A stretch of DNA of 52,584 bases from a virus. A program made the position numbers and the translations under genes. Location of the stretch: IMG/VR virus record IMGVR_UViG_3300032046_000034, positions 1 to 52,584 of that record; one strand, 5' to 3'. The first letter of the stretch is position 1. Every line of letters starts with the position of its first letter. The notes under the pieces were generated by a model. The model was not told the origin of the DNA and did no database searches. It was given only the letters and a program-made list of their open reading frames with translations. Positions 1 to 52,584 of the stretch are shown one piece after another.

Positions 1-125
1 TGCCTTGGCCGCCCGCTCCTCGATGGCGCCGGCACCAGCCATTCCAGCGGTGACGGCCTCCATCACCATGTCGCGCAGCGGGCCACGCTCATCTGTCAGC
101 TTCGCGTGGGCAGCGACAATTTCCT
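1..125. repeat. Terminal direct repeat, left copy (circular contig overlap)
   Basis: These 125 bases are identical to 52460-52584. The major capsid reading frame passes through the junction without a break when the two ends are joined, so the contig is a circle opened inside the capsid gene. The short repeat length is more like an assembly overlap than a biological terminal redundancy, but the sequence alone cannot exclude a circularly permuted genome. Confidence 0.95.
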
Positions 126-213
126 CCAACTGCCCATCCCGGATGATCTGCCCCATGCGCTTCGGGTCACGCATGAGTTCCTGAAGCCCCTCTAGGGTGT
201 CGGGGATCTCCAT
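1..213 (-). CDS. Major capsid protein, N-terminal part (continues at 52459)
   Basis: This is the 5' end of the HK97-fold major capsid gene; the rest is at 51296-52459. The ATG at 211-213 is preceded by AAAGGA and lies two bases after the protease stop. Joined across the contig ends, the protein is 458 residues. The first 100 or so residues are charged and helical, as expected for a scaffolding-like delta domain removed by the adjacent ClpP-like protease. The location, directly after the protease, supports the call. Confidence 0.9.
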   Translation of the reverse strand, partial: MEIPDTLEGLQELMRDPKRMGQIIRDGQLEEIVAAHAKLTDERGPLRDMVMEAVTAGMAGAGAIEERAAKA

Positions 214-215
214 GA

Positions 216-1238
216 TCAGTTGTCCTTTCTGCTGAACGCTTCCTCGACAGGATGTTCAGCCAGTAGTTTTTCTAGGTTAGGTTCGGGCGCGACGTATCGC
301 GCATACTCGGTGAGAACCCCTGCCCAGTCAATGCCCGTGAAGGCGTCAGCGGCACCGTCGTCGGCAGCCTCGTCGCCCTCGCTGGCGGCCTCAAAGCTGC
401 CGTCGTGGTCCTCGCAATGCGAGCGAGCAGCATCAGCGGTCCAGATGGTTTTCGGATAGCGGTAGGCTAGCTCGGTGCTTGAGGTCTCGCCCTTCAGCCT
501 GCCGATGATCACGTCGTACCGCTTGCCGTCATGATTCCGACTCATCCGCCGGAAGGAATCAGGCTGAAAGTCGTCTGGGTCCTTGAGACGGCATGCGTGC
601 TCATTGGGATAGGGGTTCTGAATGGATGGATCGGATGCCTGCGGAACCCAGTCCGGCACGTTCTCGAACTGCGAGAGGTTGAAAATGCCCACGCGGTTCT
701 GTGTCTTCGCTGGACCCACTAGGCCATCGGCTAGGCCAGCATCGACCGCCTCCTGCGCCCGATACCACGTCTCCGCCTGCATCGCCCCACGCCAGTCGGC
801 CTCGGTGCCGCCGGCGCGCCCCGCATAGATGGCGGCGATGGTGTCACCCATCTTCCCGAGCGTCTCCGCCATCTTGGCCATGTCGGTGGCATCGCCCATC
901 ACCAGGCCATGCGGCTCGTGGATCATCATGGTTGACCCTTCCGCCATGAGGACCGTGTCGCCAGCCTGAGCGATGAACGATGCAGCCGAGGCCGCGAGGC
1001 CATCGACGACGGCGTTGACATCAGCGGCATGGCGCTTCAGGGCGTTGTAGATAGCGATGCCGTCGAAGACATCCCCACCCGGGGAGTTGACGCGAAGGTT
1101 GATGTTCTTCGCCTTGATGCCCTGCAACTCCTTGACGAAATCCTTGGCGGACACGCCATAGGAACCGATCTCGTCATAGAGCAGGACTTCGACGGAGCCG
1201 TCACCTGCGTTCTGGATTTCGTACCATGTTCGCTTCAT
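216..1238 (-). CDS. Head maturation protease, ClpP-like, with C-terminal extension
   Basis: A 340-residue serine protease of the ClpP/crotonase fold used to mature HK97-type proheads. The N-terminal 200 residues carry NSPGGDVFDG, the nucleophile region GLAASAAS (Ser84) and MMIHEP (His107), the expected Ser and His of a ClpP-like triad. After about residue 210 comes a separate domain of about 100 residues rich in Asp, Arg and His (EHACRLKDPDDF, VIIGRLKGETSSTE). I recall this type of short domain on other phage proteases but know no function for it. The start was chosen for its GGAGG box; an upstream in-frame extension would run through a terminator hairpin. It ends two bases before the capsid start. 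Confidence 0.93.
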   Translation of the reverse strand: MKRTWYEIQNAGDGSVEVLLYDEIGSYGVSAKDFVKELQGIKAKNINLRVNSPGGDVFDGIAIYNALKRHAADVNAVVDGLAASAASFIAQAGDTVLMAEGSTMMIHEPHGLVMGDATDMAKMAETLGKMGDTIAAIYAGRAGGTEADWRGAMQAETWYRAQEAVDAGLADGLVGPAKTQNRVGIFNLSQFENVPDWVPQASDPSIQNPYPNEHACRLKDPDDFQPDSFRRMSRNHDGKRYDVIIGRLKGETSSTELAYRYPKTIWTADAARSHCEDHDGSFEAASEGDEAADDGAADAFTGIDWAGVLTEYARYVAPEPNLEKLLAEHPVEEAFSRKDN

Positions 1239-44091: not shown

Positions 44092-45120
44092 CTACGCCAC
44101 CCGCTCAAGTAGGGTCGCCATGCGGGTCGCGCAATCGTGTCCTTGAATCGCTTGGTGCTGCTTCTTCGCCACCTCCTCCCTCCAAACGGGATCGTCTAGT
44201 GCCCGTCTCATAAGCCGCCCGAACTCGGCCGGCGTCTGGTAGATGGGCACCGTGTCGCCGAAGATGTCCTCAACCTCCTGGCGGAAGTCGCTTATCTGGA
44301 AGCAGCCACAGGCCGCCAGCTCGAACGTCCGGGGGCTGGCGCTGTACGCCTCGCCCTCATCGATCGTCCAGTCCATGTCGATGTAGCGCTGGCTACGGTG
44401 GATGCTGAAGCTCATGGCGGCCTGCCGATAGAGGTCAGCAGCCATTTCGTTCTCTATGGCCCCGTCCCGTACATAGGGACGGAGACTCCAGCGGGAGGGC
44501 ATGGCATTCCACAGGCCGTACATCTCGAGGTCGATGCCCCGCCAATCGACAGCGTGAAGGAACTGCCGCCGACTGCCGTAGGCCGAGCCCACCCACACGA
44601 CGCGCTCACCCTCAGCGGGGTTGGGCGCCGGATAATGAATGACCGGATCGTAGGAGTGCGGCAGGTACATCACGTTGTCACAGAAGCTCTCATAGAGTCC
44701 CAGGCTGTAGCGGTCGTTCACCATGACGTAGTCGAAATGCGCCGCTTGGACGGGGGCGATCAGCGTGTCCTCATACGGGCACTCCGTGAAGTAGCCGATG
44801 GTCTTGATGCCCGACCTGCTCAACAGGTCAGCTATCGGCACCGGGAAGTATTGCGGGCTGACGACGATCACAGCGTCGACCTCGTGGTAGTGGGCCGCGC
44901 CGAAGATGGGCTCGTAGGCCAGGAGGTTCGACTTGAACGGCTCAGGCATGACTACCTTCGCCTTCCGTGCCAGGTCGAACATCGCATCAAAGGCGTTCCA
45001 TCGCGGGAGCAGGTCGAAGGGGTAGACCTCAGCACCGTTGGCCGCGAGGCCCACCAGTACCCGCTTCCAGACGTCCCTCGTGCTGAAGCCATGCGGAGAG
45101 GAAATGACTAGGAACCTCAT
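44092..45120 (-). CDS. Glycosyltransferase, CgeB-like
   Basis: 342 residues; ATGA overlap with the gene upstream. Opens RFLVISSPHGFSTRDVWKR, has IKTIGYFTECPYEDTLIAP, VVWVGSAYGSRRQFLHAVDW, and the GT-B donor-site region YSASPRTFELAACGCFQISD near the C terminus. This resembles CgeB / group 1 glycosyltransferases. It probably glycosylates a virion component, given its place in the tail operon. Confidence 0.8.
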   Translation of the reverse strand: MRFLVISSPHGFSTRDVWKRVLVGLAANGAEVYPFDLLPRWNAFDAMFDLARKAKVVMPEPFKSNLLAYEPIFGAAHYHEVDAVIVVSPQYFPVPIADLLSRSGIKTIGYFTECPYEDTLIAPVQAAHFDYVMVNDRYSLGLYESFCDNVMYLPHSYDPVIHYPAPNPAEGERVVWVGSAYGSRRQFLHAVDWRGIDLEMYGLWNAMPSRWSLRPYVRDGAIENEMAADLYRQAAMSFSIHRSQRYIDMDWTIDEGEAYSASPRTFELAACGCFQISDFRQEVEDIFGDTVPIYQTPAEFGRLMRRALDDPVWREEVAKKQHQAIQGHDCATRMATLLERVA

Positions 45121-45365
45121 GTCTCGGTCAAAGCCTCCGCGAACGAGCAGGTCTTCGCATGGGCACCAGTCAGTAGAGAGTCGCAGCATGTCCGGTAGAT
45201 GGCGCAGGGCGCATGGCGTAGGGCAGCGTAGAGGCCGTCCTTGAGGCCCTCTAGTGCCACCTCAGTTACCTCATTCGCCACCCGGAAGACCAGTCCCTCG
45301 CCGGGCCGCCATTCGATGAACTCGACCTCGGCCCGTTCCTTGCCGACGAGGATGATGATGCTCAT
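45117..45365 (-). CDS. Small protein in the glycosyltransferase cassette
   Basis: 82 residues. An N-terminal beta part (SIIILVGKERAEVEFIEW), FRVANEVTEVALEGLKDGLY and a Cys-rich end (APCAIYRTCCDSLL). Overlaps both neighbours. No family recognised. Confidence 0.62.
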   Translation of the reverse strand: MSIIILVGKERAEVEFIEWRPGEGLVFRVANEVTEVALEGLKDGLYAALRHAPCAIYRTCCDSLLTGAHAKTCSFAEALTET

Positions 45366-45808
45366 TGCGTCTCCTCCGGCTTCTCCATCACGAGCCGCAT
45401 GATCTGGCCGTCAGACAGCCGCTTGCGGGCCACGAGTTTCCAGGGCCGTATCCCGTAGAGGGCCATCTGCTCGCCGTACTGAGCGACATTGCTGAAGTAG
45501 TCCCAGGTCTGCGGCACATAGAAGCTGACGTGCGTCGGGTCGGCCATCGCCGTCCAGAAGGGGAAGACGGGCATCTCGATATCGATGGCCCCCCCGGGTT
45601 TCACGACGCGGTGAGCCTCATTCATCACGCCCACGAGATCGCGCCGCTCGATGTGCTCCAAGACGTGGTGACACTTGATACCCTCGAAGGCCCCATCCCT
45701 GAAGGGCAGATAGCGGGCGTCGCAACGCACGTCAGGTTGGCCCGCAATGTCAGTCGCTAGGAAGCCGTCCTCGCGCTTGGCGCCAGCGCCGATGTCAAGG
45801 TTCATCAC
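45362..45808 (-). CDS. SAM-dependent methyltransferase (class I)
   Basis: 148 residues, compact. NLDIGAGAKREDGFLATDI is motif I, CDARYLPFRDGAFEGI motif II-III, HHVLEHIERRDLVGVMNE and VVKPGGAIDIEMPVF follow. Typical class I fold often found beside glycosyltransferases, where it can methylate sugars. Substrate unknown. Confidence 0.82.
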   Translation of the reverse strand: MMNLDIGAGAKREDGFLATDIAGQPDVRCDARYLPFRDGAFEGIKCHHVLEHIERRDLVGVMNEAHRVVKPGGAIDIEMPVFPFWTAMADPTHVSFYVPQTWDYFSNVAQYGEQMALYGIRPWKLVARKRLSDGQIMRLVMEKPEETQ

Positions 45809-46311
45809 ACCCTCGCTACGGCGAAGACCCCCATCGGACCCTCGCCCTCGGTATCAATTCGGACGTCAGAGAAGCCCGCGTCTTCTAGGAGTAGGCGGAA
45901 GCCGGCGGGTGTAGCCCGCCAGTAGTCCTCCGGCTCGTTGTGGATCGCATACACAAAGCACCATGTCCCGATAAACAAACCGCCGGGCTTCAGTGCCCGG
46001 CGCATGGCTGCTATCGCCTGCCACGGTCTAGGGATATGTTCTAGGGTCTCACAGCAGAGCACGGTATTGAACCGTTCAAGTAGGGCAGCCTTTTCCTCAA
46101 TATAATCCGCCTCGATGTAGCTTCGATCGCAGATATCACCGACTATGTCCACCCCTGGACCATCCCGTATGTCCAGTCCGATATAGCCCTCCTGGGGAAA
46201 GAGATCGCGCACCGTGCCGTTAATGTTCAAGGCCCCGACTTCTAGGACGGGGCCTCGTGGTCGATACTCTGCAACGACGCCTTCAACCCAGGCGCGAACT
46301 TCCCCTCTCAC
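45805..46311 (-). CDS. SAM-dependent methyltransferase (class I)
   Basis: 168 residues. VLEVGALNINGTVRDLFP, YIGLDIRDGPGVDIVGDI, NTVLCCETLEHIPRPWQAI and ALKPGGLFIGTWCFV give a full class I set. Related to, but distinct from, its downstream neighbour, with overlap at ATGA. Probably part of the same sugar-modifying cassette. Confidence 0.82.
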   Translation of the reverse strand: MRGEVRAWVEGVVAEYRPRGPVLEVGALNINGTVRDLFPQEGYIGLDIRDGPGVDIVGDICDRSYIEADYIEEKAALLERFNTVLCCETLEHIPRPWQAIAAMRRALKPGGLFIGTWCFVYAIHNEPEDYWRATPAGFRLLLEDAGFSDVRIDTEGEGPMGVFAVARV

Positions 46312-49938: not shown

Positions 49939-50415
49939 CTAGGCTGCGACCACGTAGGCGTCGTCGTCGAGCGGGATGTAGAAGATGGTCCACTCGATAA
50001 CGACCGTCGCCGAAGGCGTGCTCGCCGTGAGCTTGATGGCGTTCGCCGTCGCCTTACGACCCAGGACAACCGGGTTGATTCCGAAAGTCAGGCCGTGCGC
50101 CACGTCAATGACCGGCGCGTTAGCGGTGCCGCACAGGATCACGGCGCAGTCGCCCGTCAAGATGTACATCGTGCCGATAGCATCTCCCGTGACGGTCGTG
50201 TCCGCGCACAGGTCAACGCTGTTCGTCAACTCCGTCAGCTTGATGATGGTGGCGCCGCTCGCCTCGGCGGTGGTCACCTGCCCGATCAATGCGGTGATCA
50301 TCACTCTGCCGTAGGTCGTGAAGATGTTGGCGGTTGCGGACGCAGCGAGAGACTTCTGGGCCTTCAGACCCAGCGCGAGCTCCCGAAGCGCCCGGCCCTT
50401 TGTCAATCGACTCAT
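49939..50415 (-). CDS. Virion structural protein, head region
   Basis: 158 residues. An N-terminal helix (LTKGRALRELALGLKAQKSL) then beta strands (VMITALIGQVTTAEASGATI, TMYILTGDCAVILCGTAN, IKLTASTPSATVVIEWTIFY). Downstream of the capsid gene; may be a minor capsid or decoration protein. No specific family. Confidence 0.62.
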   Translation of the reverse strand: MSRLTKGRALRELALGLKAQKSLAASATANIFTTYGRVMITALIGQVTTAEASGATIIKLTELTNSVDLCADTTVTGDAIGTMYILTGDCAVILCGTANAPVIDVAHGLTFGINPVVLGRKATANAIKLTASTPSATVVIEWTIFYIPLDDDAYVVAA

Positions 50416-50418
50416 GGT

Positions 50419-50691
50419 TTACGCTTTCCTTCCTGCCCGTCGTGCGGGCGGCTGACCCTCCGATACGGCTTCAACCTCTGCGGGCCCGGGGGCTGGGCTT
50501 AACCCAGCCCCCGACTCCACTTCGGGTTCTGATTCTGGCTCCGGCGTCGGAGGTGCCGCCGCAGCTATCTCAGCCTCTACGCACTCCCGAGCGGTGGCTA
50601 GGTGGCCAAAGATCGGGTGCTCGTAGTGGTAACGCGAGCGGAGGATGGACTCCGCTCGCGTAATCTCAGCTAGCGCAATCTCTAGGCTCAT
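50419..50691 (-). CDS. Small acidic/Pro-rich protein in the head region
   Basis: 90 residues. An N-terminal helix (ALAEITRAESILRSRYHYE) and a long disordered-like Pro/Glu/Ala tail ending RRAGRKA. ATG overlaps the stop of the read-through extension of the upstream gene, which is strong evidence that extension is translated. Possibly a scaffold or assembly factor. Confidence 0.65.
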   Translation of the reverse strand: MSLEIALAEITRAESILRSRYHYEHPIFGHLATARECVEAEIAAAAPPTPEPESEPEVESGAGLSPAPGPAEVEAVSEGQPPARRAGRKA

Positions 50692-51209
50692 GCGTTAGCC
50701 ACTCCCGGCCGCAGCGGGTTCGGCATGTTGGCCGGCGTCCGCTGGACCAACAGGTCATGCAGGATATACAGCGCGGCGCAGACCTTTGCGTCGGTCCCGT
50801 TCTGCGCGTGGTTCACGCTGATCCAGCTATAACCGTCCGTAAGCTGGGCCGCGTCGACCTCAATGACCTAGATGTTCTGCTTCTCAGCCTCGCCAGCGAC
50901 AGCCGTCATGATGGCAGCCGCCGTCTGTGTGGTCTTCGTCCAGGCTTCGTCTCCATCCAGGAGGGTCTCGGACTTGCGATAGATGGTGTCGATGACCGCT
51001 AGGTCCGCTGACGTTCCGCCCGCGTAGGCGGTGTGCTGTTGGAGCGAGGGCACGGGGTCATCAGTCGTGCCGACGGCAGTCATGAAGAGCACAATCGTGC
51101 AGCCCGCGTAGTTCTTCAAGCACACGCGCTTTCCAGTGTTCGTGGCCCCGTTCAGGGCGACCGGCACCCAAGCGCAGCTAATGTCAAACAATCGTCCCAG
51201 TGCATCCAT
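50688..51209 (-). CDS. Head-region protein with an in-frame amber codon
   Basis: Starts ATG 51209 behind AAAGGAAC and reads 113 residues (MDALGRLFDISCAWVPVAL, CLKNYAGCTIVLFMTAVGT) to TAG at 50868-50870. The same frame then runs 59 more codons with natural protein (VIEVDAAQLTDGYSWISVNH, CAALYILHDLLVQRTPANMP) and ends with a TGA that overlaps the next ATG. The whole looks like one 173-codon gene, just downstream of capsid. The TAG is either read through, suppressed, or a nonsense mutation. Confidence 0.75.
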
Positions 51210-51295: not shown

Positions 51296-52584
51296 CTATG
51301 CCCGTGCCGCCAGGGCGACGTAGGGGCTCAGCGTCGAGCCGTAGACTGGGGTCAGAGCGGACTGCACCCAAGGGCGTCCGTCCACGCGCTCCACGGGCTT
51401 CAGAGCCGTCTGGTCGCTGGTGAAGTAGGCGTGCTCCGAGGTTGAGATCTCGATGGACTGCCGGTCGCCGATAAGGTAGTACCCCAGATCGAAGAAGCCG
51501 ATGTCCCCCTGGTCACCTAGGGTCGGCACCTTCTCGGTGAAGATCAGGGGCCGGGAGAGCATCGTCATCAACGGCCCGTTGCGGATGTCGACAAGCGCCA
51601 CCGGGGCGCCGCCCACGCCGACGGAGATGGAAAGCGTCATCAACTCCTTGAAGGTGTTGATGTTCGCAATCCAGACCCCCCTGCCCAGCGAGCCGGGCAG
51701 CATCCGGGAGAACATATTGAGGATGTTCTCGACGACGATGCTGTCGGCGGGCTGGTCGGTCTCCTTGTCGACCGCTATGAGGGCCTCCGACTCCAGGACG
51801 CCCTTCGGCTGACCAGCGCCGTTGCCAGTGAGGAACGCTAGGTCCTCGAAGAAGGCGAGGCCCTTCGGAAGCGCCTGCATCAGCCAGCTCGACAGGGCTG
51901 CGGCGTCGTTCCACAACTCGTTCGGAACGGCAGCCAGGCCCATGAGCTTGTTGGCGTCCAGTTTGACGCGACCGAACTTGGCCTGGGTGATGGTCGGGGT
52001 GGCGCCCTCCTCCGTCCAGTAGAAGACCATCCCGCCTAGCACAGAGCCAGAGTTCGTCGTGGAATCGATGAACGGTATGGACTGAGTCGGCGTGGTCATC
52101 GTGATGACCGTCGCCCGCGGGCGGACGATGGACTCCTCAAGGGCGAGCTGCATGATCTCGGAGCGCATGGTCTCAGGGATCAGGTAGCCGCCGGCACTCG
52201 GGTCGACCGAGCTGTAGGCGGCCTGAACCTTGCGGATCTCAGGCAGGCGATTGTCGGGGAATGGGTTATTGTGCCAGATAGCCTTGGTGAAGTCACCAAG
52301 GCTGGCGAACCCGACATCTTCCATCCTCACGCCGGGAGCCAGGGGGTTGTAGCAAGCATTGACCTTGGCACCCGTGCAGGGCTGGGGGTGTTCTGGCGGT
52401 CCCAGGTTCGGCCGGTTGACGCCGCGCTCCTTCAGGTAGGCGTCCAGGGTGTCTCTGGTTGCCTTGGCCGCCCGCTCCTCGATGGCGCCGGCACCAGCCA
52501 TTCCAGCGGTGACGGCCTCCATCACCATGTCGCGCAGCGGGCCACGCTCATCTGTCAGCTTCGCGTGGGCAGCGACAATTTCCT
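51296..52584 (-). CDS. Major capsid protein, HK97 fold (main part)
   Basis: Together with 1-213 it encodes 458 residues. The core has SAGGYLIPETMRSEIMQLAL at the start of the mature protein, FYWTEEGATPTITQAKFGRV, NELWNDAA, FLTGNGAGQPKGVLES and WIANINTFKELMTLS, all typical of HK97-family capsids. About 100 N-terminal residues are probably cleaved by the adjacent protease. Bases 52460-52584 repeat 1-125. It is followed by a hairpin pair and by the amber-containing gene. Confidence 0.95.
   Translation of the reverse strand, partial: EIVAAHAKLTDERGPLRDMVMEAVTAGMAGAGAIEERAAKATRDTLDAYLKERGVNRPNLGPPEHPQPCTGAKVNACYNPLAPGVRMEDVGFASLGDFTKAIWHNNPFPDNRLPEIRKVQAAYSSVDPSAGGYLIPETMRSEIMQLALEESIVRPRATVITMTTPTQSIPFIDSTTNSGSVLGGMVFYWTEEGATPTITQAKFGRVKLDANKLMGLAAVPNELWNDAAALSSWLMQALPKGLAFFEDLAFLTGNGAGQPKGVLESEALIAVDKETDQPADSIVVENILNMFSRMLPGSLGRGVWIANINTFKELMTLSISVGVGGAPVALVDIRNGPLMTMLSRPLIFTEKVPTLGDQGDIGFFDLGYYLIGDRQSIEISTSEHAYFTSDQTALKPVERVDGRPWVQSALTPVYGSTLSPYVALAARA
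52460..52584. repeat. Terminal direct repeat, right copy (circular contig overlap)
   Basis: Identical to bases 1-125. Joining the copies restores the capsid gene. Confidence 0.95.

Follow-up and report, generated by a model that had tools for sequence, protein, structure and literature searches.

Does the amber codon at 50868–50870, which lies within the gene that follows the major capsid gene on the minus strand, mark a programmed event in the expression of a virion protein, or is it a private lesion in an otherwise ordinary reading frame? At 52,584 bases, the window analysed here comprises an entire IMG/VR virus record, the first and last 125 bp of which (1–125 and 52460–52584) are identical direct repeats. 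As the major capsid gene (PF05065, 51296–52584, minus strand) also reads through the joined contig junction, with its 5′ end at window positions 1–255, the genome is apparently a closed one of about 52,459 bp. The capsid gene itself ends in TAG at a place where its relatives stop with TAA or TAG. The gene that follows, hereafter the head gene, begins at ATG 51209 behind a strong ribosome-binding site (GGAGGAGG, score −12.1) and runs for 113 codons on the minus strand (50868–51209) before it reaches the TAG. Beyond this codon the frame stays open for a further 59 codons (50688–50867, minus strand) and closes at TGA 50690–50688, which overlaps the ATG (50691–50689) of the next gene (50419–50691, minus strand) as ATGA, as the original prediction had described. 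A separate ribosome-binding site of moderate strength precedes the next gene, and the same ATGA junction is present in the nearest relative, locus L002 (81% identity). Elsewhere in the structural gene region, a glycosyltransferase-like gene (44092–45189) and a methyltransferase-like gene (45805–46311) are found.

An open stretch of 59 codons would arise by chance with P of about 0.14 in a genome of 62% GC with a wrong-frame stop density of 3.3%; thus, openness alone is no evidence of coding, and it is homology that provides the evidence. The segment downstream of the TAG has GC contents of 0.65/0.43/0.82 at the three codon positions, matching the surrounding genes, and its dN/dS with respect to L002 is 0.14, compared with 0.19 upstream of the TAG. 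Judged from homology, codon-position GC and dN/dS, the segment is real coding sequence, in agreement with the original prediction of a coding continuation. Changes private to the window, counted as synonymous/nonsynonymous, amount to 20/17 before the TAG and 6/6 after it (Fisher p = 1, with small counts that give little power), and there is no sign of relaxed constraint in the downstream part. The absence of relaxation implies that the change is very recent, or an error, or tolerated via suppression, and retained constraint past the TAG argues against an old pseudogene. Retained constraint is, on the other hand, equally expected under a recent mutation, a consensus error and suppression or read-through, and does not separate these.

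The read-through interpretation can be judged from the state of codon 114 in homologues. Viral contigs and genome contigs were searched, and about 76 loci with a relative were recovered, originating from viral contigs and from Streptomyces, Lentzea and Dehalococcoidia contigs (the latter a bin). Each locus was aligned with the window protein, in which an unknown residue was set at the TAG, and 66 distinct sequences span the site. A single uninterrupted frame passes through codon 114 in all 66, so that the first check suggested with the original prediction (one uninterrupted frame or a conserved TAG) returns the former throughout; a stop at this position is found in 0 of the 66. The head proteins of related siphophage and prophage contigs thus all differ from this record in having a sense codon in place of its TAG. 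Among the closest eight relatives (59–81% identity), codon 114 is invariably Tyr (TAC or TAT), from which TAG is one third-position base change away; beyond these eight, Ile, Val and Leu codons predominate, with two further Tyr codons and others occurring once each. The relatives include L002 and, at 59% identity, a Streptomyces ossamyceticus contig (L091), both of which carry the same gene with about 170 residues of homology, located after the capsid gene wherever this can be seen from the locus. Viral contigs were also scanned twice by DNA pattern for near-identical records with either TAG or a sense codon, and only the known relatives were returned, very near records being possibly omitted from such scans. 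Neighbouring changes found in this record alone are clustered at 50799–50804, where ‘QN’ in NHAQNG replaces the ‘DL’ of near relatives. L002 covers a head region (95% capsid identity) and derives from the same metagenome (3300035659) as locus L099, which covers a tail region (78%), and the two could be pieces of the same sister phage.

The position of the TAG within the protein bears on what the codon would do. The head gene, which immediately follows the major capsid gene, encodes a conserved one-domain protein of 173 residues whose probable role is that of a capsid decoration or accessory protein. An AlphaFold2 model built with 59 sequences gives one domain of nine beta strands and one short helix (mean pLDDT 94.7, pTM 0.90), in which residue 114 falls within strand 111–119, so that the remainder of this strand, together with strands 129–134 and 143–153, is encoded past the TAG. 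According to this model, a product of 113 residues would be left with an incomplete sheet and core; such a fragment should not fold, and a loss of function would be expected. The protein has no match in the phage collection, Pfam or PDB sequences, nor in PHROGs, where some of its relatives fall into a few families, none with a named function. The top structural matches of the model are uncharacterized phage proteins (A0A6J5M948, E 4e-9, TM 0.67–0.72), whereas PDB matches are weak (E about 0.01) and comprise a neck/portal vertex chain of Agrobacterium phage Milano and a capsid chain of phage 7-7-1; these model-based matches hint at an accessory role in the capsid. The family is widespread, and a by-product of the present analysis is a well-supported, uncharacterized phage head-protein family with a confident fold model.

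Taken together, the TAG in the head gene is very probably a private nonsense substitution, either a recent real mutation or a consensus error, rather than a signal for programmed read-through. The relatives are all sense at codon 114, the nearest are one base away, and TAG occurs in one lineage only. We infer that a Tyr codon (TAC or TAT) became TAG by a single third-position change in this record alone, and the source of the base would be a mutation in the sampled phage or prophage (e.g. a defective prophage or a minor variant) or an error in the assembly consensus. Roughly equal weight is given to a real, very recent mutation and to a metagenome-assembly consensus error, although the closed contig points to reasonable coverage and somewhat lowers the odds of a random consensus error. 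The recent nonsense mutation offered as one option in the original prediction therefore fits everything seen, and a consensus error fits equally well. Literal translation would yield the 113-residue fragment, and the TAG may in addition lower translation of the coupled next gene. Against this account, an active phage would not be expected to have fixed a null mutation in a conserved head gene; suppression of the mutation or a defect of the phage would be needed to explain it.

In-frame stops in prokaryotic genes reportedly last for the most part no longer than polymorphisms within a population, a substantial fraction of them may be artefacts, and the mobilome category is over-represented among genes that carry them (Belinky et al. 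2021, PMC7918605). The head-gene TAG resembles the stops of that study in being a nonsense codon in a conserved gene of low dN/dS that is apparently very recent. The study, however, required stops to be common to at least two species, which limits artefacts, whereas the stop described here occurs in a single record. A lone stop in one metagenome-derived genome should be read as a point mutation or a consensus error unless it is common to relatives, and this caution holds even where the coding continuation is clean.

The alternatives differ in what they demand of TAG elsewhere in the genome. TAG is used at 17 of 57 gene ends in our own gene list, in which some small ORFs are uncertain. A scan of the 16 window gene ends with homologues revealed that the TAG of the head gene is crossed by 64 of 65 homologous loci, and it is the sole such end among the 16. 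Crossings at other ends are confined to the capsid (1/78) and to the end at 50419 (2/13), the remaining ends having none; the TAG of the portal gene is crossed in 0 of 46 loci and that of gene 49939–50415 in 0 of 26. Relatives stop at the same place as the capsid, portal and 49939–50415 TAGs, some with TAA or TGA. TAG as a normal stop elsewhere, which the original prediction had claimed for the portal, is thereby borne out for that gene and also for the capsid and gene 49939–50415. An added comparison with tail- and early-region relatives revealed no other real gene whose frame is clearly interrupted in this record alone. No tRNA gene was detected in the window (ARAGORN, Rfam) or across the closed junction (ARAGORN), which renders a canonical phage-encoded suppressor unlikely, and RNA structure after the stop is not unusual (z = −0.55), a downstream stimulator being not above chance.

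Of the alternatives, the one that survives best holds that the TAG is real and fixed, and that an amber suppressor of the host or of a helper, or leaky termination, inserts an amino acid at position 114 often enough to provide sufficient full-length protein. Continued constraint on the downstream part and retention of the ATGA junction of the full-length gene with its neighbour would both be accounted for in this way. The same phage nevertheless ends its capsid and portal genes with TAG as a true stop, its closed genome is without a tRNA gene, structure after the stop is unremarkable and the TAG is common to no relative, such that this explanation is considered unlikely. The host amber suppressor of the original prediction has no positive support. 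A specific version, in which the lineage has fixed the TAG and suppression in the host yields full-length head protein in limited quantity while the capsid and portal TAGs still stop, is distinctly unlikely; if true, the phage would be dependent on amber-suppressing hosts.

Programmed read-through to produce a minor extended virion protein, which the original prediction had put forward as one explanation and which would resemble that of phage Qbeta, finds no support and is highly improbable. What Qbeta A1 (PMC8067240) has in common with the present case is a virion gene whose frame holds a stop and stays open beyond it, here for 59 codons and with a neat junction to the next gene. In Qbeta A1 the leaky UGA follows a complete coat protein, to which read-through adds a domain of its own (PMC8067240), whereas in the AlphaFold2 model of the head protein the extension belongs to the same single beta domain and the TAG interrupts one of its strands. 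Moreover, the stop is conserved in none of the 66 homologues, which are single full-length frames, and no structure signal is seen downstream.

That the locus holds two independent genes, or encodes a protein in two pieces with the C-terminal one initiated separately, is very hard to credit. In-frame candidates for such a start do exist after the TAG, namely GTG 50816 and ATG 50726, which lie 18 and 48 codons into the segment, but their ribosome-binding scores of −3.1 and −3.3 are weak against the −12.1 of the real start, they fall inside or beyond core strands, and none of the 66 homologues is split. Re-initiation after the TAG was rejected on the same weak starts.

An amino-acid reading of TAG across all genes, under genetic code 15 or a similar code, for which the one in-frame TAG might be taken as a sign, has next to no probability, being refuted by the respected TAG ends and by the lack of a suppressor tRNA in the window or across the junction, as the original prediction had anticipated in judging global recoding unlikely. 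Phage phAss-1 likewise has in-frame TAG in phage genes, in its case in 41 ORFs and accompanied by three suppressor tRNA genes (PMC10607447), whereas the present genome has one in-frame TAG, no detected tRNA and TAG as a stop otherwise; there is no sign of recoding. The two crossings at the end of gene 50419–50691 are those of loci L023 and L037, in which the homologues read over the position of its stop (50419–50421); this suggests that in those phages the homologue of this gene is fused with the gene that follows.
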